DNA of 64,000 bases from Oscillatoriophycideae cyanobacterium NC_groundwater_1537_Pr4_S-0.65um_50_18 (GTDB lineage Bacteria > Cyanobacteriota > Cyanobacteriia > Elainellales > Elainellaceae). Shown here piece by piece: positions 11,822 to 52,700 of this stretch. How positions within the stretch are numbered: the first letter of the stretch is position 1; each line of letters begins with the position of its first letter. The translations under genes and the position numbers were made by a program. The notes beneath the pieces were generated by a model. It worked only from the letters and a program-made list of their open reading frames with translations. It made no database searches and was not told the origin of the DNA. The DNA lies in NCBI GenBank assembly GCA_016208305.1, contig JACQYI010000033.1, forward strand, positions 1 through 64,000, in the 5' to 3' direction.

Positions 11822-12504
11822 ATGGGTAATTTATTAGTTTTTCTGATGTAGTAAAGCCGTTGCAGATGAGCAAATATAGCTCAATTAAAATTCATATCTT
11901 TAGTAAAGAATGATAAATGTTTTCTGTTTTGGCTATACCTGTGTGAACTCATTTAAACAGCCAGAGTACGCCACACTTCATGCCTGATTAGATGGATGTT
12001 ATCCATTCTATGTAATGGTTAATCCTGAAAATGGAGATGCTTATTTATTATTTGCACAGGATAACATCCTAAATATTGGAGTTATTCCTCACTAGGCAAT
12101 GCTGCAATCTTAATCACGGCCAGAATCGATCGCCCTCCACAAATTCCGTATCTCAAAATACAGATGAACTTGTGTAAGAAATGGCTTGACGATCGCCCCC
12201 TCTCCCCTATATTCTTATCGGCTAAGGTTGCTTTTTCGGTTTTCTGCGCCAGCAGCCTTAATTTACCCAAAAACCTCTGGCGAGGCATGAAGTAGGTACC
12301 AGCTACGACATACCTCTAACCTTACAGACCGAGAGTCCCAGTCCGTAGGGCTTCAGTTAGTTTAGCTTTCTAGCTACACTCCTTGGCGCTACTTGTTCAA
12401 TCGATCGTGAGTAGCCATGTTTTTGGGGTTCCTTCTCGCCTGGTCTTTCGGCTAGGTCAGAACTCAACAAGCGAACCCAACCCAAACAACAAGGAGAATA
12501 GATC
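11822..12504. other. Intergenic region of about 680 bases
   Basis: No convincing gene is present. The first part is A+T-rich. Bases 12300-12490 would be the leader of the small gene at 12505, if it is transcribed from there. It has a small hairpin GCCTGGTCTTTCGGCTAGGT near 12439, but no known riboswitch was recognised. Confidence 0.4.
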
Positions 12505-12744
12505 ATGACCGGAGAATTCAATTTCTTCAACCATCCTGCATTGCAATCGGAGGGTGAACCCAATCCAGAGCGGGAGGTGATTCGCGTGATTGTTTTTGCC
12601 TCTCGTGATGCGGTGAGAGCGACGATTCACGAATCGCATGTGCGAGGATTTCGGACGATCGATACCTGGAGTCCGCTGCTGCCCACCCCTGATCCGCAAA
12701 AGGTGATGGCGATCAGCACGCACTATCGCCCGACGAACGGTTAG
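12505..12744 (+). CDS. Small conserved hypothetical protein, 79 residues
   Basis: A good ribosome site (AAGGAG, nine bases before ATG) and well-behaved codons support a real gene. The product is soluble, with no signal peptide. The core reads IRVIVFASRDAVRATIHESHVRGFRTIDTWSPLLPTP. I do not recognise a domain. Its G+C content is like the core genome and unlike the A+T-rich block that follows. Confidence 0.7.
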   Translation: MTGEFNFFNHPALQSEGEPNPEREVIRVIVFASRDAVRATIHESHVRGFRTIDTWSPLLPTPDPQKVMAISTHYRPTNG

Positions 12745-12985
12745 GAGGCGATCGCAGAGGTTGGTTGCAGCGGATCAAAGCTGGGTGATATCGCTTTTCA
12801 ACCAACCTCTTGCAACTCATTTCTGTGGGGAATGAAGCGATACGAGTTGTGGGTAGATTTGTGCTGAAGGCGATCGCAACATACAGTCTCCACTGGAAGT
12901 TCAAGCCGCCTAACAGTTAATTTTAGCGGCAGCAATTGCCCTTCATGTAATAACAACTATATTTATTCTTCGCTGTAGCGATTTA

Positions 12986-13276
12986 TTAGCCAATCTCCAG
13001 TTCAATTTTTCTAGAGATATCCATGATCTCTTTGGAAATCAACTTATAATCTTCGGAAATCTGATCTTGGCTCTTATTAGCGAGGAAAAAGAGTTTTTCC
13101 GAAGCAGTTCTAATCAGCTTTGCTAGCTGAGCTTCAGGATCAAGCTGGTTGACAGAAATCCATCTATCAATCGCCTTACTTGACAATCCCAATAGTTCTT
13201 CCTTTCTCCATCGCTTACAATTCACTATTTGAAGAATATGTCTTTGAGCTGCAATACGATTGTTAAACTCGCTCAT
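12986..13276 (-). CDS. Small hypothetical protein, third gene of A+T-rich operon
   Basis: This 96-residue, mostly helical protein overlaps the end of the nucleotidyltransferase gene by 14 bases, so the two are probably translationally coupled. The sequence has R7-x5-H13 (RIAAQRH), which is the spacing of the HEPN RNase motif (R-x4-6-H), but its location at the N-terminus makes this weak evidence. No known family is recognised. As the last gene of a three-gene unit it may be an antitoxin, effector or accessory factor to the nucleotidyltransferase. That is inference only. Confidence 0.65.
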   Translation of the reverse strand: MSEFNNRIAAQRHILQIVNCKRWRKEELLGLSSKAIDRWISVNQLDPEAQLAKLIRTASEKLFFLANKSQDQISEDYKLISKEIMDISRKIELEIG

Positions 13277-13898
13277 TTTCCTTAGCCTTTTCTATCAAGT
13301 TAGACATCCAATTAGATACTTCAGTCAATTCTCTGATCGCAGTATCTATTTCGTCGTTAGTTAATTTTTCTCCGTATCCTCTTGTGCATAATATTCTAGC
13401 TTTTTCTAAAATATGATACGAGGCTAATGTAGATGGAATACTATCAAAGCCTAAATGAAGTGCCGAGTTCCTAGAAAAATTTGGTTGTCTGGTTATACCT
13501 AGAGAGAAACAAGTTGCCATGTTTCTGATGCTTAAAAATACGATAGATAAATCAAAAATTATACTTTTACTACCCGTAATTATCGAGTCTTGTGCTTCAC
13601 AAAACAGGGAGAAGAACTTTTGGCAGTCACTTAGACAGTTTTTATATGTTTCTGGGCTTCCTAATGTACTCAGGTAGTCAATTCGATTCGATGAAAAAAG
13701 AAGCCGTGCTTCAAATGATAGATGCCATGCGAAAGGGTTACCTTCTTTCCATAGAGCCTGTATCCTTTCATAAGAGTACACTGAAAAAATATTTGGATCG
13801 ATGCGAGTATCGTGACCCTTGACAATCGCAAGTAGATCAACATCTGAACCTAGAGATATATCTCCACGACAGACAGAACCGAATGCGTAAATATCCAT
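13263..13898 (-). CDS. Pol-beta-type nucleotidyltransferase
   Basis: This 211-residue protein opens directly with the nucleotidyltransferase signature: GSVCRGDISLGSDVDLLAI at residues 7-25, which fits GSxxRG-x5-SDxDL, with two catalytic Asp. A later segment (NPFAWHLSFEARLLF) may supply the third acidic residue. The remaining part is helical. The usual helix before the first strand is missing, so the protein is shorter at its N-terminus than most relatives. It starts two bases after the stop of the pentapeptide gene, with no separate ribosome site, so coupling is likely. Stand-alone members of this superfamily modify tRNA, proteins or drugs; here the target is unknown. Confidence 0.8.
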   Translation of the reverse strand: MDIYAFGSVCRGDISLGSDVDLLAIVKGHDTRIDPNIFSVYSYERIQALWKEGNPFAWHLSFEARLLFSSNRIDYLSTLGSPETYKNCLSDCQKFFSLFCEAQDSIITGSKSIIFDLSIVFLSIRNMATCFSLGITRQPNFSRNSALHLGFDSIPSTLASYHILEKARILCTRGYGEKLTNDEIDTAIRELTEVSNWMSNLIEKAKENERV

Positions 13899-13900
13899 AT

Positions 13901-14710
13901 TTAGCGGCGATTTAACTGCTTGATGATAATTGACATAAAAAAGCCAAAGGCAATTAACCTAATCAGTACGATAAGTGTGAGATATAAACTCGAATAATTT
14001 GCCGGAGTAAAAGTTCCTAGAAAAATTTGGGGTGAGTTGAGAAATGATTGTACATAGCTATTAATGCTTTGAGAGCTACTAAATGCAATAACATCAATCA
14101 AAGCCATGAAAGCAAACAAAATTAAAACTACTCGTAATAACTTCCAGGGACTTTCACCATTACCCCATATAAAATCAAGTAGTTTAAATCGAGACCATTT
14201 ACTAAATTCCTGAACTCGATTCCATCCTTTATACTTATTTCGATAATAGGATGAGTTTGAATTCCACGACTTATACAAGTGCTCCTCAGTGGCTTTCAGC
14301 TCTACACTCATTGCTTTATTGGCTGATTCTGCGTCTCCAAGTGATTGGTAATTCATGCGCAGTGAACGGGCAAATCTCATTTTAAGATTTTCTTCTTCCG
14401 GGCACTCTTGATCTAAAATATGATTATCAATCAGTGTTTTTTCAAAAGTAGCATATTGGAATTCACAACTAGAAAATTTTGCCCCATGTAGATTAGTTCC
14501 AATAAATCGACATCCAGTAAAGTCACATGAAATAAATTTGCAATTTCGAAGATAACAAGTGTCAAAAATTGAATACTTAAAATCAACTTTAGTGAATTTC
14601 CTATTCGATGCAATGAGACGAATGAATAGTTTATTCGTAATTTTCTCATTCTCAACGTCTGCATCAAACTTTTTGTCTACTTGGTGTTCTCTTTCACTAT
14701 TAGAAAGCAT
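13901..14710 (-). CDS. Pentapeptide-repeat protein with C-terminal membrane domain
   Basis: This 269-residue protein has pentapeptide repeats near residues 40-90 (FKYSIFDTCYLRNCKFISCDFTG...; A/C-D/N-L/F-x-x units), then a charged helical linker. Two membrane helices near residues 190-210 and 240-262 flank a loop with a helix-like stretch (SPQIFLGTFTPANYS). The layout helix-loop-helix with a short re-entrant-like loop is reminiscent of two-helix ion channels (Ion_trans_2), but no selectivity motif is seen. It is first in a tightly packed A+T-rich operon with a nucleotidyltransferase. A membrane effector role is possible and unproven. Confidence 0.75.
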   Translation of the reverse strand: MLSNSEREHQVDKKFDADVENEKITNKLFIRLIASNRKFTKVDFKYSIFDTCYLRNCKFISCDFTGCRFIGTNLHGAKFSSCEFQYATFEKTLIDNHILDQECPEEENLKMRFARSLRMNYQSLGDAESANKAMSVELKATEEHLYKSWNSNSSYYRNKYKGWNRVQEFSKWSRFKLLDFIWGNGESPWKLLRVVLILFAFMALIDVIAFSSSQSINSYVQSFLNSPQIFLGTFTPANYSSLYLTLIVLIRLIAFGFFMSIIIKQLNRR

Positions 14711-14820
14711 TGAGGATTCTCTGAATAAAGTAATTTTGAAGTACAGTTTCTTATATTTTATTCATATTACACTAGGCAGGCTACAAAGGTTTTCAGAAAG
14801 ATCAGCATTTCCGGCTATCC

Positions 14821-14967
14821 ATAATGTTAAACTGAAAATTTCTGTCTACCTATCCAAATATAATGATAGTTAGAAAAGTTCTGCCCATCACCCTAAATTG
14901 AGTATATGGGCGGAAACATTCCACATAACTTGTCAACTTAAGTAAACAAGCGGAAATAGTTGTATCT
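14821..14967 (-). repeat. Three-hairpin structured repeat, copy A
   Basis: This 147-base element aligns along its full length with 34346-34494 (copy B, opposite strand), at perhaps 65-70 percent identity by eye. On the minus strand the order is: stem TTCCGC/GTGGAA; stem GCCCAT-ACTC with loop AATTTA and GGGT-ATGGGC; spacer CAGAACTTTTCTAA; stem CTATC/GATAG; then CAGAAATTTTC. The stems differ from copy B by paired changes, so the structure is conserved. It lies about 110 bases upstream of the pentapeptide gene on the same strand. Confidence 0.75.
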
Positions 14968-15145
14968 TTTTTAACCTGCCTTTCGGTAAAACAAAATTTA
15001 TGGAGAAAGTATGGTGATTTTATCTGCCTGACTCCTTCAGAGGACAATGAAGGGACAAGATCTAACCGATCGCCTTTCACTCTTCAAAATCGATCGCCCC
15101 ATGTCCCCACAGTTCTAACAGTTCTCTATCCGATCGTCACTCTTT

Positions 15146-15300
15146 ACAATTCGATCGCCCCCTCTACAATCCCATTGTCATCGGTCAATATTCGATTGCA
15201 GAGCTAACAATTCCATTGCAGCTCCTACAATTCGATTGTGAGTTAATGCAATACGATCGCAGCCGCTACAATGCCATTGCAACCCGACACAATGCGGTCG
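15146..15300. repeat. Array of eight CAAT-N3-ATTG palindromes, ~20.4-bp period
   Basis: CAAT occurs at 15147, 15167, 15186, 15208, 15228, 15249, 15269 and 15290 (steps 20, 19, 22, 20, 21, 20, 21). In most units it is followed after three bases by ATTG or ATCG, giving imperfect palindromes such as ACAATTCGATTGT. Degenerate units may extend left to about 15070. The period is two helical turns, as in operator or iteron arrays that bind a protein on one face. It lies upstream of the A+T-rich operon and behind the hydrolase gene. Confidence 0.7.
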
Positions 15301-15348
15301 CAAACATCTTTTCGGTAGAGAAATTAGACCATACGGCTAGAGTAAAAT

Positions 15349-16509
15349 TCACCGTTTCAAACGCAAGCAATCCTGGCTAAAGGCTCGGATGGCTTCGGTA
15401 AATTGTGGGTTGCGCTCCATGAGTGCCATATGGCCTCCGGGAGACAGGACAACCAATTCTGCTTGAGGTGCCGCCTTCACCATGCGATCGCTCGCAAAGG
15501 GTCGAGTTACAATGTCAGACTTGCCAACCACAACCAATAGAGGAACAGCAATTTCAGGTAACGTCGCTGTTTCATCGAACTTAAACATCGCCAAAACCCC
15601 TCGTGCCAAAACACCGGGTGATGCCTTGATCCCAACTAGACTAGAGAAATTAAGTTGCCCTCGTGTTTCTCTGCCCGTGAAGCCAGAAATCTCAGTGCTT
15701 AACAGCGTTAGGCCGTTGAAATAACTGAGCCAGCTTGAAAGCCACAGCAGGGGAGAAAAGGCGATCGCCAAATGAAGCAATGGTTCCAGCAACGGTTTTT
15801 GTAATGCCAACAATAGCTTGCTGAGAATGGCGGTTTTGAGCGGATTCGTGTAGGTACCATCTACGAGAACCAAACCCGCCACGCGTTGCCCCAGATGTTC
15901 TGGAAATAAACGGCTGAAGGTCAGCAGAATCATGGCTCCCATGCTGTGTCCGACCAACATAACAGGCTGATCGCCCGCCAGCGCTAAGACGGCTTCCAAA
16001 TCACGGGCGTATTTCTCTAAAGAATAATCTCGATTCTGCGGCTTTTTAGATTTGCCTAAACCGGGGAGATCCCAAACAATGACGCGAAACTGATCGGTGA
16101 GTTGTTTCTTTGCGTAATACCAAGACGTACTATCGGGACCCCAACCGTGAGTCAAGATCAGGGTGGGCGCGTTATCGGGTCCGTAAAATTCGACTTGAAT
16201 GTCGCTACCATCGGGTCGAGCAAGACGATGCACTCGGTTGCTGCGGTTGGGTTTGGGTTCATCTTTACCCCGACGATGCAGCAGCAAGATCGGTAGAAAG
16301 CCTAAAAAAGACCACAGCAACATCGCTAGGCTCAGAATGAACCAACTGGTAGCCAGCAGCGTACCCGTATACCACGCATAGAAAAGATAGCCACCACCCC
16401 CCAATAAGGCGATCGCCAACAGGCTCGACAGCAACCGTAACAGAAAGTCGAGGGGCATAAACATGGCAAGTTCAAACGTCCGTAGCAAAGGAGCAAGTTG
16501 CACCAACAC
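15349..16509 (-). CDS. Alpha/beta hydrolase with N-terminal membrane anchor
   Basis: This 386-residue protein has two hydrophobic segments (about 25-48 and 53-78) and then an alpha/beta hydrolase domain. HGWGPDSTSW is the oxyanion region, GHSMG carries the nucleophile Ser, and the C-terminal SPGGHM has the catalytic His; the Asp probably sits in VGKSDIVT. The domain should face the cytoplasm or periplasm depending on topology, which is not clear. Substrate is unknown: esterase, lipase-like or haloperoxidase-like roles are all possible. It stands alone. Confidence 0.88.
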   Translation of the reverse strand: MLVQLAPLLRTFELAMFMPLDFLLRLLSSLLAIALLGGGGYLFYAWYTGTLLATSWFILSLAMLLWSFLGFLPILLLHRRGKDEPKPNRSNRVHRLARPDGSDIQVEFYGPDNAPTLILTHGWGPDSTSWYYAKKQLTDQFRVIVWDLPGLGKSKKPQNRDYSLEKYARDLEAVLALAGDQPVMLVGHSMGAMILLTFSRLFPEHLGQRVAGLVLVDGTYTNPLKTAILSKLLLALQKPLLEPLLHLAIAFSPLLWLSSWLSYFNGLTLLSTEISGFTGRETRGQLNFSSLVGIKASPGVLARGVLAMFKFDETATLPEIAVPLLVVVGKSDIVTRPFASDRMVKAAPQAELVVLSPGGHMALMERNPQFTEAIRAFSQDCLRLKR

Positions 16510-16663
16510 TAAGAAACTCTACACAGCAAAGCAACCCTCTGAAGTTAGAACAAGCTCTTGACAGATTCTTAAGTTCTTCAATTCTCTAGCCGAATTTGGG
16601 GCTTCACTTTACCCATCCCCTCATCACCATGAGACAAAACTCCTCAAGAGTCAGAGAATAGTC

Positions 16664-16948
16664 CTAAATCATCTCAGCTCTATCGCCTCTCTCTAAAAAC
16701 ATATGAACAGGTGGATTATCGCCTTCTGATGAGCGAATGAACGAAAAAGAGTGGTCTCCTTGATAAATGATGAAAACAATTGCATCCTCAGGAAGGTTTG
16801 GGGAATGCTCCGCCAGTTGCATGATGCCAAGAGCGTTATTACGGTTCGTTGATGCTACATAACCCCAGTTGTGATAGTCTCCTGCAAGCAGCCCCTGTCC
16901 ATTGCCTGTCCACAGTAGAAACTCCTGATACGCTTTTGGGATCGACAT
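16664..16948 (-). CDS. SUKH (SMI1/KNR4) domain protein, 5'-truncated
   Basis: The 94 residues from Met at 16948 contain the SUKH core: IPKAYQEFLLWTGNGQGL, YHNWGYVAS, DAIVFIIYQGDHSFSFIRSSEGDNPPVHMFLERG. The frame is open for 20 codons further upstream with a good match to the missing first helix (SLEDIQKLEQLLG), but it ends at a TGA at 17009-17011 without a Met. The gene therefore seems to have lost its start, or uses a rare one. SUKH proteins often serve as immunity proteins next to toxins. The upstream sequence is decayed coding DNA, as expected of an orphaned toxin-immunity pair. Confidence 0.65.
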   Translation of the reverse strand: MSIPKAYQEFLLWTGNGQGLLAGDYHNWGYVASTNRNNALGIMQLAEHSPNLPEDAIVFIIYQGDHSFSFIRSSEGDNPPVHMFLERGDRAEMI

Positions 16949-17008
16949 TCCCAGAAGTTGCTCAAGTTTCTGAATGTCTTCTAAGGAGCAAGGATCGGGC
17001 GGAGGATA

Positions 17009-17225
17009 TCATTTTTTTGTTTGTCTCATCTCTTCATATCTACGCTTAGCTTCATCTAAATACATAGCTTTTTCCTGTGGTTTGAGACTACGAAATTTAA
17101 CGGTTTTGAAACTCAACTTCTTAAAAGGAGGTAAAGTCCTTAATAGGATTTTCTACATCAATCTCTTCAGTAATTGGGTCTACTCCATTAGGATCAACGT
17201 ATCTTGAACCGTGAACAATCTTGAT
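17009..17225 (-). pseudogene. Decayed coding remnant upstream of SUKH gene
   Basis: Two overlapping frames seem to be halves of one protein. The first reads ...IVHGSRYVDPNGVDP, then ITEEIDVENPIKDFTSF and a stop. One base over, in the T-run near 17126, the frame continues as KKLSFKTVKFRSLKPQEKAM, then YLDEAKRRYEEMRQTKK, and stops at the TGA just before the SUKH frame. A single-base insertion would join them. The family is not recognised. Its place directly before a SUKH gene suggests the C-terminal end of a polymorphic toxin (inference). No N-terminal part remains; a glycosyltransferase fragment abuts it. Confidence 0.4.
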
Positions 17226-17437
17226 TTAGACTCGTCCTTGATGCGGCGCTAAGATGAGGCGAATGCGATCGTCCTGACGGACATAAAATTGAGCGATCTC
17301 TAGAGTGCCATCCGCGGAGCCGTCATCCCAGATCAGCAGCTCAAAGTTGCGGTGGTTTGGGTGAGAATGCTCTCGATGCCGAAGGAATGGTAGCGATCGC
17401 GGTTATATGTGGTGAGAAGGAGGGTGGCGATTAGCAT
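17226..17437 (-). pseudogene. Family 2 glycosyltransferase, N-terminal fragment
   Basis: On the minus strand from ATG at 17437 the frame reads MLIATLLLTTYNRDRYHSFG, then IESILTQT. A frameshift follows, then RNFELLIWDDGSADGTLEIA and QFYVRQDDRIRLILAPHQGR before TAA. TYNR and WDDGSADGT are the nucleotide-sugar motifs at the N-terminus of GT2 (GT-A) enzymes. Only about 70 of the usual 250-300 residues remain and a frameshift is needed, so it is a dead fragment. Confidence 0.75.
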
Positions 17438-17498
17438 TATTTTACGGCCAAGATAATTTAGGTCTTAATTGTAGGGCTATCGGAGGATCTGACACTTC

Positions 17499-17957
17499 CT
17501 ATCGATGAGCGCGTACCTCAATAGAGGCAGCGTCTTTAAGAAATTCCGCCCACCACGGTTCAGCAGCAATTTTGGGATAACGTTGTTTGACAAAAGGGAT
17601 AATGACTGCGAAGTAACGGCTCATTAGGCGATCGAATGCCTCATGGCTAATCACCACTTGTCCAAGTGGAGGAAAACCTCCAAACAAAGCGCGAATCCGA
17701 ACTCCATCAAACGGCTCTTCACCTGGCTCAGGACAATTACCGAATATACAATCAGCTGTATCGTTTCCAAGTCCAACTTGCTCAAGAGCACCTTTTGCAC
17801 AAGCATCAAGATCATCTGGATCAATCGATTCCAACAAATGTTTTATCGGTGACAGTTCATCTTCAGCATTGACTTCAACATACCTACTCCGGGACTCTGG
17901 CAAAGCGGGTGTGATTGTCAGAGTATCGATGAGTTGATCAGGAGTTATAAAAGTCAT
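17499..17957 (-). CDS. Hypothetical protein, 152 residues
   Basis: This acidic soluble protein has a mid-region with several Cys (DACAKGALEQVGLGNDTADC, then IFGNCPEPGEEPF) and a C-terminal helix-rich part (EAFDRLMSRYFAVIIPFVKQ, then RYPKIAAEPWWAEFLKDAA). I do not recognise a family. It is divergent from the first NRPS gene with 111 bases between the start codons, so the two could share a control region. A link to the peptide pathway cannot be shown. Confidence 0.6.
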   Translation of the reverse strand: MTFITPDQLIDTLTITPALPESRSRYVEVNAEDELSPIKHLLESIDPDDLDACAKGALEQVGLGNDTADCIFGNCPEPGEEPFDGVRIRALFGGFPPLGQVVISHEAFDRLMSRYFAVIIPFVKQRYPKIAAEPWWAEFLKDAASIEVRAHR

Positions 17958-18068
17958 GGTATTTCCAAAACGCTTTCAGGAATGTTTAGATAAGTCTGCC
18001 CAAATGCAGATACTTGCAAGCCCCAACTGCCTTATAAAGAGAAGGCAAATTGCACCAGAGCTTGTTGA

Positions 18069-21000
18069 ATGACCCTCGAAAGACACCTCTGCACCCTATC
18101 TGAAGATGCGATCGAGGATGAGGTTTTTGTCTTTCCGACATCATTCGCGCAACAGCGACTCTGGTTTTTAGATCAGTTGGCTCCAGGTACACGCTTCTAC
18201 AATGTGCCCCTTACTCTGCATCTTACTGGGGCGATCGATGACGCTGCTTTGACCCAAAGTTTTAACGAGATTGTGCGTCGCCACGAAGCATTGCGAACCA
18301 CCTTTGCCTGGATGGACGGACAACCTGTGCAAGTGATTGCGCCTTGTTGGGATGTGTCTCTTCCTTGTGTTGACCTACAATCTCTACCCACGCTTGAGCG
18401 AAAGGCTGAATTGCAACAGTTACTCAGCGACGCGATGCAGCGATCGTTTAACCTTTCGCAGGGTCCCCTTTTGCAGCTCATGCTCATCCGACTGAGCGAA
18501 ACAGAGTCTGTGCTGCTGTTGAATTTTCATCACATTGTGTTTGATGAATGGTCTAGCGGAGTTTTCATTCAAGAACTGGGCGCACTCTACACTGCTTTTA
18601 AGCAAGATCAGCCGTCGCCCTTGAGCGATTTGCCGATTCAATATGCCGACTTTGCCCATTGGCAGCGGGAGTGGTTACAGGGAGATGTTTTAGAGCGGCA
18701 ACTGGCTTACTGGCGACAGCAGTTAAACCAGGTTCCTGTGCTGGATCTACCCACCGATCGCCCTCGCCCGCCTGTGCAAAGCTATCGGGGCACCACGCAG
18801 CAGCTAGAAATTCCACAAGCGTTGATGGCAGCCTTGGAATCTCTCAGTCAGCAGGCAGGCGGAACCCTGTTTATGACATTGCTGGCCGCATTTCAGACTT
18901 TGCTGCATCGTTATACAGGTCAAACGGATGTGGCAGTGGGTTCACCGATCGCCAATCGCAATCGCAGTGAACTAGAGGGTTTGATTGGATTCTTCGTAAA
19001 TAGCCTGGTTTTACGCACCGATCTCTCTGGCGATCCCACCTTTCGCAACTTGTTAGAACGGGTGCGATCGGTGGCTTTAGCTGCTTACGCCCATCAAGAC
19101 GTACCCTTTGAGAAATTGGTTGAAGAGCTGCATCCAGAGCGCCATCTCAGTCGCAATCCGCTATTTCAGGTGGTCTTCGCCCTCCAAAATGCACCCATGC
19201 AGCAATTGGAATTGCCAGGGTTAACGCTCAGATCTTCCAACTTTGAGACAACCACCACACGCTTTGATTTGGAACTTTACTTGTGGGAATGTTCTGATGA
19301 TTTTAGGAGCCTGTGGGGGGATGGCTGGAACCATGCTGCCGGATTGCGGGGAGTCATGGTTTACAACACTGATTTGTTTGATCAAACTACCATTCTGCGA
19401 CTGTTAGATTCGTTTCAAATTCTGCTAGAAGCGATCGCCATAAATCCAGATCGGCGACTTTCAGAGTTACCTGTTTTAACGGCATCTCAAGAGCAGCAGT
19501 TGTTGATTGAATGGAATCAAACTCAACGAGACTATTCAGCCGATCGCAGCATTCATCAGCTGTTTGAAGCGCAGGTGGAGCAATCGCCCGATGCGATCGC
19601 TGTCCAGTTCAGTGACAAGTCATTTACCTATCGAGAACTCAACAACGGCAGTAACCAACTGGCGCACTATTTGCAAACCTATTTGCAAACGATGGGAATC
19701 AGCGCGGGTGCGCGGGTTGGTATTTGCATGGAGCAATCGGTTGAAATGGTGGCGGGACTGTTAGGCATCTTGAAGGCTGGCGGTGCGTATGTCCCTTTAG
19801 ATCCGTCTTACCCGATCGAGCGGCTACGCTGGATGATAGAGGATGCGGAAGTCTCCGTGTTGCTGACTCAACATCATAGGCTGGAGTCATTTAGTGAGAC
19901 TGAGGTGAAGCTCATTTGTCTGGATCGAGACTGGGAGACGATCGCTCAAGCCAGCGAAGCTAATCCCACAAACCAGAGTAGTGCTGATGACCTGGCTTAT
20001 GTGGTGTATACCTCTGGCTCCACAGGAATTCCAAAAGGGGTAGCAATCCCGCATCGAGCGGTGAATCGGCTGGTTTGCAATCCCAACTACATGCAGTGGC
20101 AAGTCAGCGATCGAGTGGCTCAGGTCTCTAACATTTCGTTTGATGCTGCCACGTTTGAAATTTGGGGTGCTTTACTCAATGGCGCTCAGCTCGTCGGGAT
20201 CGATCGCGAAGTCTCACTATCGCCGCTGGCGTTTGCCGCCCAACTGCAACAGCAGCAGATCAGCGTATTGTTTCTGACGACCGCTCTGTTTAACCAGATG
20301 GCTCAGGATGCTCCTGCAGCTTTTAGCAGCTTGCGCTATCTCTTATTTGGTGGCGAAGCGGTTGATCCTAGATGGGTGCAAACCGTCCTCAAGCAGGGCG
20401 CGCCCCAACACTTGCTGCATATGTATGGCCCAACTGAGAGTACAACGTTTGCCTCCGGGTATGAGGTGCGGGCGATCGCAGAGGACGACACCACTCTTCC
20501 CATTGGTCGCCCCATTGCCAACACGCAAATTTACGTCTTAGATCCTCACCTAAAGCCTGTCCCGATCGGTGTTAGAGGAGAGTTGTACATCGGCGGGGAT
20601 GGCTTAGCACAAGGCTATTTGAACCGTCCGGAGTTGACGGCAGAAAGGTTTATTCCTAATCCCTTTCAGGAGAATGGGGGAAGCCATTCTCCTTCCTCGC
20701 CTCGCCTTTACAAAACCGGAGATTTAGCACGCTACCGGGCGGATGGCAATTTGGAATTTCTGGGGCGTGTGGATGACCAGGTGAAACTGCGGGGTTTTCG
20801 GATTGAGTTAGGCGAGATTGAAACGGTATTGAGCCAACATCCAACTGTTCAAGTAGCGATCGTGTTGCTCCAGGCAGGAGCCGCAGTCGGGCAGCCGGAT
20901 GAACAGCCTAAACGCCTAGTGGCATACCTTGTCTCTAGCTGCACCAGCCTCCCAATTAGCGATTTGCGGCGGTTCTTGAAATCGAAACTGCCCGATTATA

Positions 21001-21428
21001 TGGTGCCTGCGGCGTTTGTAATGCTAGACGCGCTGCCTCTGACCGCTAATGGCAAAGTCGATCGCCATGCCCTTCAGCTGTTTGCGCCCACAGATGCGTC
21101 AATAATGGAGCGAGCCGAGCTGTCCCAGACACCCCAAACGACGATCGAGCAGACGCTTGCCACCCTTTGGCAGCAAATTCTGGGATTGGAGCGAATCGGC
21201 ATTCACGACAATTTCTTCGAGATGGGTGGACATTCCTTGTTGGCAACCCAGTTGATGTCGCGCGTGCGGGATGCCTTCCAGATTGAGGTGCCGCTTCGCA
21301 GTTTGTTTGAAACCCCGACGATCGCAGGTTTAGCAAACACAGTTGAAATAATGCGCTGGACAAGCCAGATGCAAAGCGTAGAGCCGATCGCCTCTAAAAC
21401 CGTCAGTCGTGAGGAGGTAGAGATTTGA
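18069..21428 (+). CDS. Non-ribosomal peptide synthetase, module 1 (C-A-PCP)
   Basis: This 1119-residue protein has a condensation domain at about 20-440, an adenylation domain at about 490-1000 (A3 YTSGSTGIPKG near 647, YGPTE, YKTGDLARYRADG, A10 LTANGKVDR) and a peptidyl carrier at about 1025-1095 (DNFFEMGGHSLL, phosphopantetheine Ser near 1056). The condensation active site reads HHIVFDEWS instead of HHxxxDG: His and Asp are kept and Gly is Glu. My hand-read specificity code is D-A-F-F-L-G-M-T-F-K, suggestive of a branched-chain residue such as Ile or Val, with low certainty. An N-terminal C domain in the first module may add a fatty acyl group. The acidic C-terminus (SREEVEI) suits docking to the next protein. 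Confidence 0.95.
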   Translation: MTLERHLCTLSEDAIEDEVFVFPTSFAQQRLWFLDQLAPGTRFYNVPLTLHLTGAIDDAALTQSFNEIVRRHEALRTTFAWMDGQPVQVIAPCWDVSLPCVDLQSLPTLERKAELQQLLSDAMQRSFNLSQGPLLQLMLIRLSETESVLLLNFHHIVFDEWSSGVFIQELGALYTAFKQDQPSPLSDLPIQYADFAHWQREWLQGDVLERQLAYWRQQLNQVPVLDLPTDRPRPPVQSYRGTTQQLEIPQALMAALESLSQQAGGTLFMTLLAAFQTLLHRYTGQTDVAVGSPIANRNRSELEGLIGFFVNSLVLRTDLSGDPTFRNLLERVRSVALAAYAHQDVPFEKLVEELHPERHLSRNPLFQVVFALQNAPMQQLELPGLTLRSSNFETTTTRFDLELYLWECSDDFRSLWGDGWNHAAGLRGVMVYNTDLFDQTTILRLLDSFQILLEAIAINPDRRLSELPVLTASQEQQLLIEWNQTQRDYSADRSIHQLFEAQVEQSPDAIAVQFSDKSFTYRELNNGSNQLAHYLQTYLQTMGISAGARVGICMEQSVEMVAGLLGILKAGGAYVPLDPSYPIERLRWMIEDAEVSVLLTQHHRLESFSETEVKLICLDRDWETIAQASEANPTNQSSADDLAYVVYTSGSTGIPKGVAIPHRAVNRLVCNPNYMQWQVSDRVAQVSNISFDAATFEIWGALLNGAQLVGIDREVSLSPLAFAAQLQQQQISVLFLTTALFNQMAQDAPAAFSSLRYLLFGGEAVDPRWVQTVLKQGAPQHLLHMYGPTESTTFASGYEVRAIAEDDTTLPIGRPIANTQIYVLDPHLKPVPIGVRGELYIGGDGLAQGYLNRPELTAERFIPNPFQENGGSHSPSSPRLYKTGDLARYRADGNLEFLGRVDDQVKLRGFRIELGEIETVLSQHPTVQVAIVLLQAGAAVGQPDEQPKRLVAYLVSSCTSLPISDLRRFLKSKLPDYMVPAAFVMLDALPLTANGKVDRHALQLFAPTDASIMERAELSQTPQTTIEQTLATLWQQILGLERIGIHDNFFEMGGHSLLATQLMSRVRDAFQIEVPLRSLFETPTIAGLANTVEIMRWTSQMQSVEPIASKTVSREEVEI

Positions 21429-24400
21429 CTAGAGATTTGACTAGAGATTTAACCACGGTGCAGTTTTTAGCGAATCTGCGGAGTTTGGATATTCAAGTTT
21501 TTGTTGAGGGCGATCGGTTACGCTGTAGCGCCCCTGAAGGAACGGTAACGCCTGAGCTGCAAGCAGAACTGGCTCAACGCAAACCCGAACTCATTTCTCT
21601 GCTACGGCACACAGCTCATGCCAACGGTCACGCTCATAGTCACGCTCATGGTCACGCCAGTGCGATTGTTCGGCTCCCTCGCGAGCGATCGCTGCCCCTC
21701 TCGTTCGCCCAGCAGCGGCTGTGGTTTCTGGATCAGTTGGTGCCTGAGAATCCCTTTTACAACATGCCTGCTGCCGTCCAGTTGCAAGGACACCTGAATC
21801 TGAAAGTGCTCCAGCAGGCGTTTAACGCGATCGTTCAGCGGCATGAAACACTCCGCACGACCTTCACTCAAGTCGATGGACAACCCGCTCAAACGATTGC
21901 GTCCAGCTTGAGTCTGCACCTACCTGTAATCGACTTGCAAAGTATTCCGACTCTCGATCGAGATGTAACCCTGCAGCGATTGGCAACCGAGGAAGCCCAT
22001 CGCCCCTTCAAGCTCACGACAGGGCCGTTGCTGCGCGTCACCCTGTTGAAACTTGCTGAAACTGAGCATATCCTGCTGCTGACGCTGCACCACATTATTT
22101 CCGATGGCTGGTCAATGGGGGTGCTGATGCAAGAATTAGGAGTGCTCTACACGGCATTTCTGAATGGGCAGTCCTCTCCGTTAAGCGAACTATCCATTCA
22201 ATATGCTGACTTTGCCCACTGGCAGAGGCGATCGCTCCAGGGCGAAATTCTGGAGTCGCAACTGGCTTACTGGGGGCAACAGTTAAAGGATCTTCCAGGT
22301 CTAAATTTGCCGACCGATCGCCCGCATCCACCTGTGCAGGGGCATCGGGGCGCGACGCAACCGCTCGCGCTTTCACCCACCCTTACCGCTGCCCTGGAAG
22401 CGTTGGGTCAAGCAGAGGGAGTCACCCTGTTTATGACGCTGTTTACAGCATTCCAAATTCTGCTCTACCGCTACACCGGGCAAACGGATCTGGCCGTCGG
22501 AGTGCCGATCGCCAACCGTAACCGCAGTGAGATCGAGGGCTTGATTGGCTTCTTCGTCAATAGCCTGGTGCTGCGAACCAACCTGGCTGGCAATCCCACC
22601 TTTCGGGAACTGTTGCGACAAGTCCGTGAGGTGGCGCTGGCCGCCTATGCTCATCAAGACGTGCCCTTCGAGAAGCTGGTAGAAGAGTTGCATCCAGACC
22701 GGGATTTGAGTCGTAACCCCCTGTTTCAGGTGGTGTTTGCGCTGCAAAATGCGCCGATGCATTCCCTGGAGCTACCAAACTTAACGCTCAAACCGTGGCA
22801 GCTTGCCATCGGCACAACCCGCTTTGACCTGGAGTTTCACCTGTGGGAGCAATCTCAGGGACTCAGCGGTTTATGGCAAGAGCCTGTTGAGGGCATCAGT
22901 GGCTTTGTGGCGTACAACACTGACTTGTTTGATGCCGCTACGATCGCCCGTCTCCTTACCCATTTTCAGACCCTTCTGGAGGCCGTTGTTGCGCATCCCG
23001 ATCGGCACATTACAGAGCTGTCAATCCTGAGTACGACCGAGCGGCATCAGCTTTTGAGCGAATGGAATGAGACTCAACTTGAGTACGCCAGCGATACCTG
23101 CATTCATCATTTGTTTGAATCACAGGCTGCTCAAACGCCCAACGCGATCGCCGTTGTGGGTGCCGATGAACAGTTAACGTATCAGGCATTAGATCAGCGA
23201 TCGAACCAACTCGCCCATTATTTGCAGCAGCTCGGAGTCCGTCCCGATAGCCTGGTTGGGATTTGTGTCGATCGCTCCGTCGATACGGTTGTAGCCGTAT
23301 TGGGAGTATTGAAGGCTGGCGGTGCTTACCTACCGCTCGATCCGGAGTATCCGCGCGATCGCTTGAGCTTTATGCTAACGGATGCTAAAGTTTCCATTCT
23401 GATCACGCAACAGTCCCTTGTCAGTGTCTTGCTCACCGTCGATGCAACAGTCATTTGCTTAGAGACAGAGGAGAGGATCGCTCAGCAAAGCCAGGAGGCT
23501 CCGACAGCCAATGTCACATCTGAAAACCTGGCCTATGTCATCTATACCTCTGGTTCAACGGGTACACCCAAAGGCGTACTGATTCAACATCGAGGATTGT
23601 GCAATGTGGTGACTGCTCAAATTCAGGCATTTCACCTGCCCCTGGGAAGCCGCATCCTGCAATTTAGCTCGTTCAGCTTTGATGCCTGGGTGTTTGAGCT
23701 ACTGCTGGCCTTTGGAGTGGGAGGAACGCTCTATATCGCGCCACCGGAAGCCCGATCGCCCGGAGCAGAATTGAGTCAGTTTTTGCGAGAACATGCGATC
23801 GCCGCTACCCTTTTGCCGCCTGCGGTACTAGCCGTCCTGCCAGCAGCAGACCTTCCTGCATTGCAAACGGTGATTGCAGGGGGTGAAGCCTGTACGGTCG
23901 AGATTATCGATCGCTGGGCAATCGATCGCCGCTTCTTCAACGCCTACGGACCTACTGAAGCAACCATTTGGGCAAGTGTGGCGCAATTGCAGTCCGGTGA
24001 ATTGCCCTCGATCGGTCGCCCTGTTGCTAACACTCAAATTTATCTGCTCGATGCTCAGCGTCAACCTGTGCCGATCGGCGTTGCCGGGGAGTTGTACATC
24101 GGTGGGGATGGCTTAGCGCGAGGCTATCTCAATCGTCCTGATTTAACGGCAGAACGGTTTATTCCTAATCCCTTTCAGGGGAATGGCAGAAGCCATTTTA
24201 CTCCCTCGCCTCGCCTTTACAAAACCGGAGACTTAGCCCGTTACCGTGCCGATGGCAGCTTAGAGTTTTTGGGGCGTGTGGATGATCAGGTGAAGTTGCG
24301 GGGTTTTCGGATTGAGTTGGGCGAGATTGAAACGGTATTGAACCAACATGCGATCGTGCAGCAAGCAGTCGTGACGGCACACCCACAAGAGTCGGGTAAA

Positions 24401-26215
24401 CAGTTGGTTGCCTATGTGGTATTGAACCTAAAAGATAAGGCTTTGGTACTGGAGCAGGTATTGCACAGGGAACAGATTGAGCAATGGCAGAAGCTCTATA
24501 ATCAGACCTACGCTCAAACAACTGACACCGCTCAAGATCCCACCTTTAACATCATCGGGTGGCAAAGTAGCTATACCGGACAGCCGATCGCTCCTGAGCA
24601 GATGCGGGAATGGCTCCACGATCGAGTCCAGCAAGTGCGCGATCGCCAACCGCAGAAAATACTGGAGATTGGCTGTGGCACCGGGCTGATGCTATTTCAG
24701 CTTGCGCCCCACTGCGCTGAATATTGGGCAACCGATTTTTCCTCTGCCTCACTGGATTACATTCGGCAGCAGTTGCCAATTCAAGCCTTGCCGCAGGTCA
24801 AATTGCTGCACCGGTGGGCAGATGATTTTACCCATCTGGAGCCTGCCTACTTTGATGCCGTCATTCTCAACTCTGTGGTGCAATACTTTCCTAGCCTGGA
24901 TTACCTGGTACGGGTGCTGGAAGGTGCAGTGCAACGGGTGAAACCGGGTGGCTTTATTTTTATCGGGGATGTGCGAAATTTACGATTGCTGACCGCATTT
25001 CAGTCGGCGGTGCAGCTATATCAGGCAGATGCAGCTCTGGAACGATCGCAGCTCCAGCAACGGGTGCAACGTGCCCTGTTTGAGGAAGCGGAACTGGTAA
25101 TCGAGCCTGATTTTTTCCATGCTTTGCGCGATCGCTTACCTGCCATTCGTCAGGTAAAAGTTGAGCTATCGCGGGGTCGCTTTGCGAACGAAATGACCCA
25201 ATTTCGCTACAATGTCATGCTGCAAATTGGGCACTCTCCTGAGGAGAAGCTGTGGCATGCCAACGAATTCCCATCATCCCAATTTCCATCATCCCTGCAT
25301 TGGACTGCTGACTTAACTCCAGCCGCTATCCATCAACAGCTAGCCGAAACGCAGCCAGAACAGTTGCAAATTAATGGTGTTCTAAATGCGCGGGTGGTGA
25401 AAGCAGTACAAACGGCAGATGGGTTGGCAGATGAAACCAGCCCTAAAACAGCAGGTCAACTGCGACAAGCATTAGAACATGTAGAATCTGGTTTCGATCC
25501 GGAGGATTGGTGGGATCTGGAAACAGAGTTACCTTACACCATTGAGATTCGCTGGTCAGACTTGGGGATCGATCGCTACGATGTGGTCTGCTTAAAACGA
25601 TCCTCTTTAGAACCAAATCCCATAGCCGTTCCATCTTTAAAGCAACTGAGCCGCGATCGCCCCTGGCACACTTACGCAAACCAGCCGCTACAAACTCAGT
25701 TAGCGCGACAACTGATTCCCCAGCTACGGCAGCATTTAGAGCACAAGCTACCTGCTTATATGGTGCCCTCCGCCTTTGTGGTGCTAGAAACGCTGCCCCT
25801 GACCGCCAATGGCAAAGTCGATCGCCGCGCCCTGCCTGCACCCGATGCCAGCCGCATCAACCGAACCGGAGCGGATGCTGAGCCGCGATCGCCGCTGGAA
25901 GTGACCCTGGCCCGTTTGTGGTCAGAATTATTGGGCGTTCACCGAGTCGGCATTCACGACAATTTTTTTGCATTGGGGGGACATTCGCTGCTGGCTACGC
26001 AACTAACGTCTCGCATTCGCGATGAGTCTAGTGTGGAATTACCGCTCCAGAGTCTGTTTGAAGCTCCCACGATCGCTCAACTGGCTCCCATCATTGACCG
26101 CTTAAAGCAGCAGACAGCTCAACCCTCAACGCCTGCGATCGTGCCGCTTGCCCGTAGTGCCCATCGTCGATCGCGATCATCCCTCATGAATGGGAAACCA
26201 GGAGAGCAGCCGTGA
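21425..26215 (+). CDS. NRPS, module 2 (TubC-dock, C-A-nMT-PCP)
   Basis: This 1596-residue protein begins at TTG 21425, overlapping the previous stop (ATTTGA), with GAGGAGG about seven bases upstream. Residues 5-60 form a TubC-type docking domain. C domain about 75-500 with HHIISDGWS; A domain from about 545 (A3 YTSGSTGTPKG near 706); an N-methyltransferase is inserted before A10 (SAM motif ILEIGCGTG near 1078); A10 LTANGKVDR near 1458; carrier with LGGHS, Ser near 1524. The hand-read code is D-A-F-L-I-G-A-I-W-K, a hydrophobic residue of unknown identity. The product residue should be N-methylated. A segment near A7-A8 is very similar in DNA to module 1, pointing to module duplication or gene conversion. 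Confidence 0.95.
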   Translation: MTRDLTRDLTTVQFLANLRSLDIQVFVEGDRLRCSAPEGTVTPELQAELAQRKPELISLLRHTAHANGHAHSHAHGHASAIVRLPRERSLPLSFAQQRLWFLDQLVPENPFYNMPAAVQLQGHLNLKVLQQAFNAIVQRHETLRTTFTQVDGQPAQTIASSLSLHLPVIDLQSIPTLDRDVTLQRLATEEAHRPFKLTTGPLLRVTLLKLAETEHILLLTLHHIISDGWSMGVLMQELGVLYTAFLNGQSSPLSELSIQYADFAHWQRRSLQGEILESQLAYWGQQLKDLPGLNLPTDRPHPPVQGHRGATQPLALSPTLTAALEALGQAEGVTLFMTLFTAFQILLYRYTGQTDLAVGVPIANRNRSEIEGLIGFFVNSLVLRTNLAGNPTFRELLRQVREVALAAYAHQDVPFEKLVEELHPDRDLSRNPLFQVVFALQNAPMHSLELPNLTLKPWQLAIGTTRFDLEFHLWEQSQGLSGLWQEPVEGISGFVAYNTDLFDAATIARLLTHFQTLLEAVVAHPDRHITELSILSTTERHQLLSEWNETQLEYASDTCIHHLFESQAAQTPNAIAVVGADEQLTYQALDQRSNQLAHYLQQLGVRPDSLVGICVDRSVDTVVAVLGVLKAGGAYLPLDPEYPRDRLSFMLTDAKVSILITQQSLVSVLLTVDATVICLETEERIAQQSQEAPTANVTSENLAYVIYTSGSTGTPKGVLIQHRGLCNVVTAQIQAFHLPLGSRILQFSSFSFDAWVFELLLAFGVGGTLYIAPPEARSPGAELSQFLREHAIAATLLPPAVLAVLPAADLPALQTVIAGGEACTVEIIDRWAIDRRFFNAYGPTEATIWASVAQLQSGELPSIGRPVANTQIYLLDAQRQPVPIGVAGELYIGGDGLARGYLNRPDLTAERFIPNPFQGNGRSHFTPSPRLYKTGDLARYRADGSLEFLGRVDDQVKLRGFRIELGEIETVLNQHAIVQQAVVTAHPQESGKQLVAYVVLNLKDKALVLEQVLHREQIEQWQKLYNQTYAQTTDTAQDPTFNIIGWQSSYTGQPIAPEQMREWLHDRVQQVRDRQPQKILEIGCGTGLMLFQLAPHCAEYWATDFSSASLDYIRQQLPIQALPQVKLLHRWADDFTHLEPAYFDAVILNSVVQYFPSLDYLVRVLEGAVQRVKPGGFIFIGDVRNLRLLTAFQSAVQLYQADAALERSQLQQRVQRALFEEAELVIEPDFFHALRDRLPAIRQVKVELSRGRFANEMTQFRYNVMLQIGHSPEEKLWHANEFPSSQFPSSLHWTADLTPAAIHQQLAETQPEQLQINGVLNARVVKAVQTADGLADETSPKTAGQLRQALEHVESGFDPEDWWDLETELPYTIEIRWSDLGIDRYDVVCLKRSSLEPNPIAVPSLKQLSRDRPWHTYANQPLQTQLARQLIPQLRQHLEHKLPAYMVPSAFVVLETLPLTANGKVDRRALPAPDASRINRTGADAEPRSPLEVTLARLWSELLGVHRVGIHDNFFALGGHSLLATQLTSRIRDESSVELPLQSLFEAPTIAQLAPIIDRLKQQTAQPSTPAIVPLARSAHRRSRSSLMNGKPGEQP

Positions 26216-52365: not shown

Positions 52366-52475
52366 AAGCCCGTAGTGCTCTAGTGCCGCAACGCTTGCCC
52401 CGCATCCACACCATCGCATTATCTACTCAGGATCATGGATTAAATAAAACCCAAGATTTTTCAAAAAATCTTTTA

Positions 52476-52637
52476 GAGGATGTTTGAAAAGTGGTCGGCT
52501 GTGATTTTATGCACCTGTTGATCCCCCCTGCCCCCCTTAAAAAGGGGGGAAATGAATTCAAAGTCCCCCTTTTTAAGGGGGATTTAGGGGGATCTAAAAC
52601 GTTTTGCTACCCATAGTTGGACTTTTCAAACATCCTC
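52476..52637 (+). mobile_element. MITE-like element, 162 bp, with TTA duplication
   Basis: Ends GAGGATGTTTGAAAAG and CTTTTCAAACATCCTC, flanked by TTA at 52473-52475 and 52638-52640. The body carries G-run and C-run hairpins and no coding frame. It is the same family as 8493-8729 and 1-79, and is the shorter form. It lies between the HAD gene and the aminotransferase gene, and may separate their transcription. Confidence 0.85.
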
Positions 52638-52700
52638 TTAGGCTAATTTGGCTGTGATCCTCAGCTAATTACATCATCTACTACATCTGGGAGCAGGCTA

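Follow-up and report, generated by a model that had tools for sequence, protein, structure and literature searches.

The 64,000-nucleotide stretch of cyanobacterial DNA analyzed here (the window) carries, at positions 15147 to 15300, an array of eight CAAT-N3-ATTG-like units that is a slightly worn member of a family of repeat arrays lying between cyanobacterial genes. Arrays of this family repeat in steps of 20 or 21 bp, about two turns of the helix, and in several families of cyanobacteria they often stand upstream of one conserved gene encoding a protein of 124 amino acids (aa). We judge it about an even call that they are phase-locked rows of putative protein-binding sites, with upstream regulatory elements before the 124-aa gene and dispersed copies elsewhere. 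Such a class, constant in its two-turn step, recurring upstream of one gene in several families and dispersed elsewhere, points to a sequence-specific DNA-binding protein, and the arrays may represent a genome-wide regulatory or architectural system.

The window array lies between the 3' end of an alpha/beta hydrolase gene and the start of a Hailong-like operon. Its features and nearest neighbors are listed here (G, C, and L numbers below are our handles for genomes, contigs, and loci).

13901..14710, minus strand: pentapeptide-repeat gene, first of the Hailong-like operon, with its 5' end towards the array about 436 bp away (context)
15023..15146, no strand assigned: left flank, common to an array of Drouetiella hepatica (G003:C13) and partly to a gene-linked array of G023:C272
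15126..15136, no strand assigned: degenerate ninth unit, CTATCCGATCG, preceding the array
15147..15300, no strand assigned: array of eight in-register CAAT-N3-ATTG-like units, starting at 15147, 15167, 15188, 15208, 15228, 15249, 15269, and 15290
15167..15177, no strand assigned: perfect palindromic unit, CAAT-CCC-ATTG
15208..15218, no strand assigned: perfect palindromic unit, CAAT-TCC-ATTG
15228..15238, no strand assigned: perfect palindromic unit, CAAT-TCG-ATTG
15269..15279, no strand assigned: perfect palindromic unit, CAAT-GCC-ATTG
15349..16509, minus strand: alpha/beta hydrolase gene, with its 3' end towards the array (context)

A preliminary description of this DNA had placed CAAT at eight positions with a mean step of 20.4 bp. 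CAAT is present at all eight, but only seven of them are unit starts: the one at 15186 (CAATATTCGATTG) is out of register, and the third unit begins at 15188 with ATATTCGATTG, the counterpart of ACATTCAATTG in related arrays. The steps in register are 20, 21, 20, 20, 21, 20, and 21 bp, with the same mean. The further statement that most units are palindromic was too strong, as only four of the eight are perfect; one arm pair is broken in the units at 15147 and 15249 and two in those at 15188 and 15290. Self-identity of the array is strongest at lag 41 (0.52, against 0.46 at lag 20 and 0.38 at lag 21), a maximum that is the 20 + 21 double step. Stops in five of the six reading frames, together with the mixed 20- and 21-bp steps, mark it as a noncoding copy. 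To set the array against chance, we scored chains of CAAT-N3-ATTG units spaced 19 to 23 bp apart and took dinucleotide-preserving shuffles as the background. The top score in the window was 20.6, far beyond that of any of the 300 shuffles (mean, 3.8; maximum, 6.0). Lone CAATNNNATTG sites with at most one mismatch were not clearly enriched in the window (47 versus 37.3 ± 7.0, with 8 of 100 shuffles reaching 47), and the signal is therefore the array itself.

Three perfect units in succession occur in 11 of the 388 genomes of the class and in none of the 388 for a reversed-pattern control; the count of 11 is a lower bound because a pattern this strict passes over the genome of the window itself. 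A sequence profile made from 20 five-unit segments, with 70 candidates scored per genome, found arrays in 23 of 60 relatives. In the window's own genome, the 10 of 13 profile matches that were listed fall on C26 (the window) and C62 (C62:27517-27677), at C55:153265-153407, and in a short run at C55:154260-154314, and their positions give at least three array loci. Further arrays thus exist both in the same genome and in relatives, where the preliminary description had proposed to look for them. Arrays are numerous in Nostocaceae. A scan of named genomes returned at least 118 stretches; among the matches listed, 91 were cyanobacterial, mostly from Nostoc and its relatives and also from Drouetiella hepatica and Oscillatoria, and 27 came from other phyla (Bacteroidales and others). 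Homology of these 27 to the cyanobacterial arrays is unsupported; none of them had a relative of the 124-aa protein in the DNA fetched, and they are probably unrelated tandem repeats. At L028, L033, L056, and other Bacteroidales loci, CAAT-N3-ATTG likewise occurs within tandem arrays of 21- or 22-bp units, which are dispersed and probably unrelated. A viral origin was likewise rejected: none of four IMG/VR stretches with three perfect units had the cyanobacterial spacer (judged by eye), and in the DNA fetched none encoded a relative of the 124-aa protein. When GTAA-N3-TTAC was searched at 21-bp steps as a reversed control, it gave 7, 1, and 2 matches in G462, G413, and G451, respectively, which suggests a further box type.

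Loci of the window's family have their unit variants in a common order (judged by eye). Left flank and unit order of the window array match those of the D. hepatica array (G003:C13) at 78 to 80% identity, with 22 of 121 aligned positions differing in the left flank, which includes an inverted repeat within CACAGTTCTAACAGTTC. The right flank is common to G003:C13 and G000:C62. These sequences suggest three copies that were dispersed long ago and that recombination by way of the arrays may have shuffled.

We compiled a Nostocales set of 88 arrays from 86 of the 91 cyanobacterial loci (omitting L034, L036, L040, L055, and L092), allowing steps of 19 to 23 bp, and 600 of their 606 steps are 21 bp. 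The window's family and f16 contributed 21 arrays, in which 103 of 157 steps are 21 bp and 53 are 20 bp. The two-turn spacing to which the preliminary description drew attention is thus a real constraint, whereas its comparison with centromere or iteron arrays is unsupported, arrays being scattered over several chromosomal loci in each genome. Of 599 perfect Nostocales units, 459 have GCG, GCC, GGC, or CGC as N3. The box is flanked mostly by R on its left and by Y on its right, and the oriented spacer consensus in Nostocales is YWTCGRCTRA. Between adjacent units, the arms change at 0.039 per site and N3 at 0.198 (ratio, 0.20; bootstrap, 0.15 to 0.24; 467 units from 81 loci), which is an upper estimate of the effect because the loci had been chosen for three perfect units, favoring the arms.

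An arm-independent sample was drawn by searching 99 Nostocaceae genomes with the spacer only. Nineteen genomes matched, and 40 of the 45 loci among the matches listed were taken (omitting G456:C18, G456:C56, and three G333 loci), with steps of 20 to 22 bp allowed. Every step in these 40 arrays is 21 bp. Their majority boxes are CATT-AATG in 15, CAAT-ATTG in 7, CAAT-AATG in 6, TTAT-AATG in 5, and others in 7. Arm pairs are complementary in 134 of 160 cases, compared with 120.9 after shuffling of the right halves (p = 2e-4), and this covariation is carried by the third pair, positions 3/9 (28 paired versus 18.1 expected). Only 14 genomes supplied the 40 arrays; when each genome is represented by a single array, pair 3/9 is matched in 10.7 of 14 versus 6.7 (median p = 0.03). 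All p-values given here are generous because units and arrays are not independent. The preliminary description had named palindromes without conservation as one finding that would speak against it; the arms proved to be conserved and tend to covary. CAWT-N3-AWTG describes most boxes, and since mixed CAAT-AATG and TTAT-AATG arrays exist, the palindrome is preferred rather than required. In the comparison of the window array with its D. hepatica relative, the arms were not significantly better kept (4/64 versus 15/90, p = 0.08). The oriented flanking bases (outer pair, −1/+1) are associated in Nostocales with odds of 1.9 (p = 0.009) and in the window's family with odds of 0.2 (p = 0.004), and the strand-averaged table showed no association (p = 0.20); because these associations are weak and opposite between groups, they do not make a clean case for a dimer site.

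The 124-aa gene is present in 34 of 99 Nostocaceae and in 18 of 60 relatives (the window's family and beyond), and several Nostocales have an array about 124 bp ahead of its open reading frame (ORF). With a self-identity of ≥0.70 as the criterion for a period-21 array, a threshold set after inspection of the loci, such an array stands upstream of the gene at 22 of 30 Nostocaceae loci, taken one per genome. The corresponding frequencies were 12 of 855 for random 600-bp stretches and, for the upstream regions of other genes of ≥150 aa, 7 of 268 free of ascertained arrays and 51 of 314 including these. Boxes upstream of the gene are of the CAAT, CATT, or TAAT type, with TTAT-ATTG at some loci, and an alignment of nine sequences shows that the DNA separating array from gene is conserved. 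Among 20 gene loci from relatives, the 124-aa ORF was found in 16, six of which have a clear upstream array (L310, L313, L314, L319, L321, and L324, in G023, G021, G039, G135, G012, and G251, respectively); at the other 10 of these 16 gene loci outside the 30 Nostocaceae, such as L312 of D. hepatica, a clear array was not found. At L232/L314 (G039, of another family), seven of eight units before the gene are CATT-N3-AATG, in reversed orientation.

Orientation relative to the gene is not fixed. The array is reversed in register at L258, L260, L263, and L314, with the reservation that orientation scoring was ambiguous for 34 of 55 loci, L258 among them. In Nostoc sp. UHCC 0926, the array before the 124-aa gene on plasmid pn1 is reversed (by eye), and the chromosomal copy (L252 of G374, matched by coordinates) is forward by eye, with equal scores both ways. 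About 200 bp seem, by eye, to interrupt the array on this plasmid (L330:3500-3730).

Arrays and gene also tend to occur in the same genomes. Among the 60 relatives, 15 have both, 8 have arrays alone, 3 have the gene alone, and 34 have neither (p = 4e-6), a co-occurrence that is partly trivial because the array often adjoins the gene. Among the 99 Nostocaceae, an S-array is present in 17 of 34 genomes with the gene versus 2 of 65 without it; when only listed arrays on other contigs or distant from the gene are counted, the figures are at least 10 of 34 versus 2 of 65 (p = 3e-4). Array scores in those of the 60 relatives that lack the gene are not visibly lower. The window's own genome has arrays and lacks the 124-aa gene, and the window copy is thus an orphan. 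The analogy with cooperative operators drawn in the preliminary description fits best where an array stands upstream of this gene, which is not the situation in the window.

Conservation of the 124-aa protein is high (15 sequences), and its features include a long conserved stretch and a basic tail. Searches gave only two sub-cutoff matches in Pfam and none in NCBIfam, PHROGs, or PDB sequences. The predicted structure is one long helix with a low-confidence N terminus (mean pLDDT, 74; pTM, 0.41), and at this low to moderate confidence it contains no recognized DNA-binding fold. With no library match above the cutoff and no such fold predicted, we rejected the protein as a recognized DNA-binding protein; it is only a candidate for the binder of the arrays.

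We consider a row of protein-binding sites the best reading because the phase is kept, inversion is tolerated, a two-fold box is preferred, and a conserved block follows the array. A two-fold symmetric box under constraint is what the operator of a dimeric transcription factor would present, and the arrays have such a box, with nonpalindromic exceptions. Each unit of about 21 bp (20 to 21 bp in the window's group) comprises a two-armed box, CAAT-N3-ATTG in the window, and a partly conserved spacer. From these sequence patterns we infer that a sequence-specific DNA-binding protein most likely occupies each box as a dimer. The two-turn step would set successive dimers on one face of the DNA, where cooperative binding could assemble them into a short nucleoprotein row. 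The row that relatives have just upstream of the conserved block before the 124-aa gene may serve as an orientation-independent upstream regulatory element, with the block as a putative promoter. Dispersed arrays without the gene, the window copy included, would perhaps be weaker binding sites or relics. We regard as speculative, and rather unlikely, the bolder proposal of an undescribed nucleoprotein system of filamentous cyanobacteria, in which the arrays would be read in trans by a protein polymerizing on one DNA face and the helical, basic-tailed 124-aa protein would be either its polymer-forming partner or its main regulated output.

Neutral turnover is a serious rival because the arrays are patchy, rapidly homogenized, sometimes of mixed boxes, and without an overall 5' preference, and we hold it to be possible, if doubtful. 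If the arrays were a minisatellite, neutral or selfish, their roughly 21-bp units would expand, contract, and homogenize by slippage and unequal recombination, duplication would disperse the copies, and the palindromic boxes would persist by promoting slippage or template switching and not through protein binding. This would agree with arrays that are homogenized within a locus and different between species, with a distribution that is patchy even inside genus g5 (present in G135 and G153; absent from G007, G225, and G264), with the whole-unit differences between the window and D. hepatica arrays, and with the existence of nonpalindromic mixed arrays. One genome may hold arrays of several box types; exact three-unit counts of the two symmetric types, CATT and CAAT, respectively, show some genomes with CATT only (such as G389, 47 and 0, and G432, 48 and 0), some with CAAT only (G428, 0 and 53), and some with both (G333, 37 and 50). 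Array neighbors overall, unlike those of operators, present 85 3' ends versus 82 5' ends (crude ORF calls). However, the same box recurs in distant families with N3 changing five times faster than the arms, the 21-bp step holds throughout the spacer-chosen arrays, and arrays of different families share a single position in front of a single gene; moreover, any palindrome should serve a minisatellite, yet CAWT-AWTG prevails.

The covarying arms and conserved linker would also suit a transcribed RNA element. In such an element each unit would fold into a small hairpin, CAAU-N3-AUUG, with a conserved linker between hairpins, and the array as RNA would be bound to a protein or control transcription. 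The weak outer-pair association in oriented Nostocales units points the same way, as does the folding of the window array, which on either strand is better than that of shuffled sequence (z = −2.7 and −3.0), as that of any repeated palindrome would be. Nevertheless, the stems would be only 4 to 5 bp, the outer pair is oppositely associated in the window's family, no credible Rfam match was found, and wobble-type single changes run in opposite directions, confounded by HIP1 (13 versus 31 in Nostocales, 24 versus 3 in the window's family). We consider an RNA element improbable mainly because the orientation to the 124-aa gene can flip. A role in replication or partition is very improbable in our judgment. 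Iterons of theta-replicating plasmids follow one another as direct repeats of roughly 20 bp that keep helical phase, and the in-phase direct repeats of the arrays, with steps of 20 to 21 bp, resemble them; unlike plasmid iterons and centromeres, however, the arrays are mostly chromosomal, dispersed, and intergenic and have a two-armed box in each unit. Instead of a single origin- or par-linked array, there are several dispersed loci per genome, and BLAST of a plasmid collection with two array queries gave no match, although the low-complexity filter may hide some; despite this result, one array does lie on a Nostoc megaplasmid. These dispersed loci and absent plasmid matches led us to disfavor a plasmid origin or centromere. 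Some units contain CGATCG, which is also the core of HIP1, an abundant octamer, and could on that account be a by-product of HIP1 or of chance, a reading that hardly deserves credit and is already refuted by the shuffles, which never reached the score, and by the reversed control; the octamer itself, GCGATCGC, occurs 77 times in the window and not once in the array.

The preliminary description could recall no cyanobacterial repeat class of this form, and our searches agree with it: neither Rfam nor literature searches, read at the level of their results, gave anything on a class of phased 21-bp arrays. Rfam 15 had no match with E values up to 1 for positions 12000 to 18000 of the window, and on four related loci it gave three microRNA matches far below gathering scores. 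STRR heptamer repeats, SDR elements, and HIP1 are short repeats of cyanobacterial genomes. The 7-bp unit of STRR is absent here (lag-7 matches were 4 and 5 of 21 in two consensus units, and lag-7 identity was 0.20 in the window array). The small dispersed repeats (SDR) of Nostoc are reportedly described in a 2008 paper, and the array class may overlap them. CRISPR repeats are about 23 to 50 bp long with unique spacers between them, whereas the arrays have a period of 20 to 21 bp and spacers of 9 to 10 bp that share a consensus. REP/BIME-type repetitive extragenic palindromes are intergenic, palindromic, multicopy, and clustered. The arrays are alike in all four respects but differ in their far shorter palindrome (11 to 13 bp), strict 20- to 21-bp period, and long runs; REPs are named in PMC4692102. 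The window box also has a likeness among operators, its core CAAT-N3-ATTG being identical to that of the OhrR/MarR type. Such operators, TACAATT-A-AATTGTA, usually occur as one or two promoter sites, unlike the many phased sites at many loci seen here, to which no such protein is linked.

Other elements lie near the arrays. The operon beside the window array (12986-14710, minus strand) resembles a Hailong defense operon and consists of a pentapeptide protein, a nucleotidyltransferase, and a 96-aa ORF; the first two match HalA (NF051894) and HalB (NF051895), respectively, both weakly and far below the cutoff. A multicopy ORF of 66 aa, preceded by a conserved leader some 270 bp long, occurs at L171:6052-6252 and L184:6018-6218 and in further copies, with a distant relative in the window at 12505-12744 (plus strand). 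It has 10 matches in the window's own genome (7 of them full-length, two being identical in protein), 22 in G018, and 14 in G005; Pfam, NCBIfam, and PHROGs gave no matches to it, and Rfam gave no credible one. In G021, this ORF and the array are duplicated together. We nonetheless rejected the arrays as part of a mobile 66-aa-ORF element: the link between them is local, because the ORF is equally numerous in genomes without array matches (G005, G014, and G018) and two of the three own-genome copies examined are array-free. Short stretches at 12826-12935 and 52473-52640 of the window recur in related loci, the second also elsewhere in the window. At 18069-26215 (plus strand), two long multidomain ORFs (1,119 and 1,596 aa) contain modules that, judged from their translations, resemble those of nonribosomal peptide synthetases.
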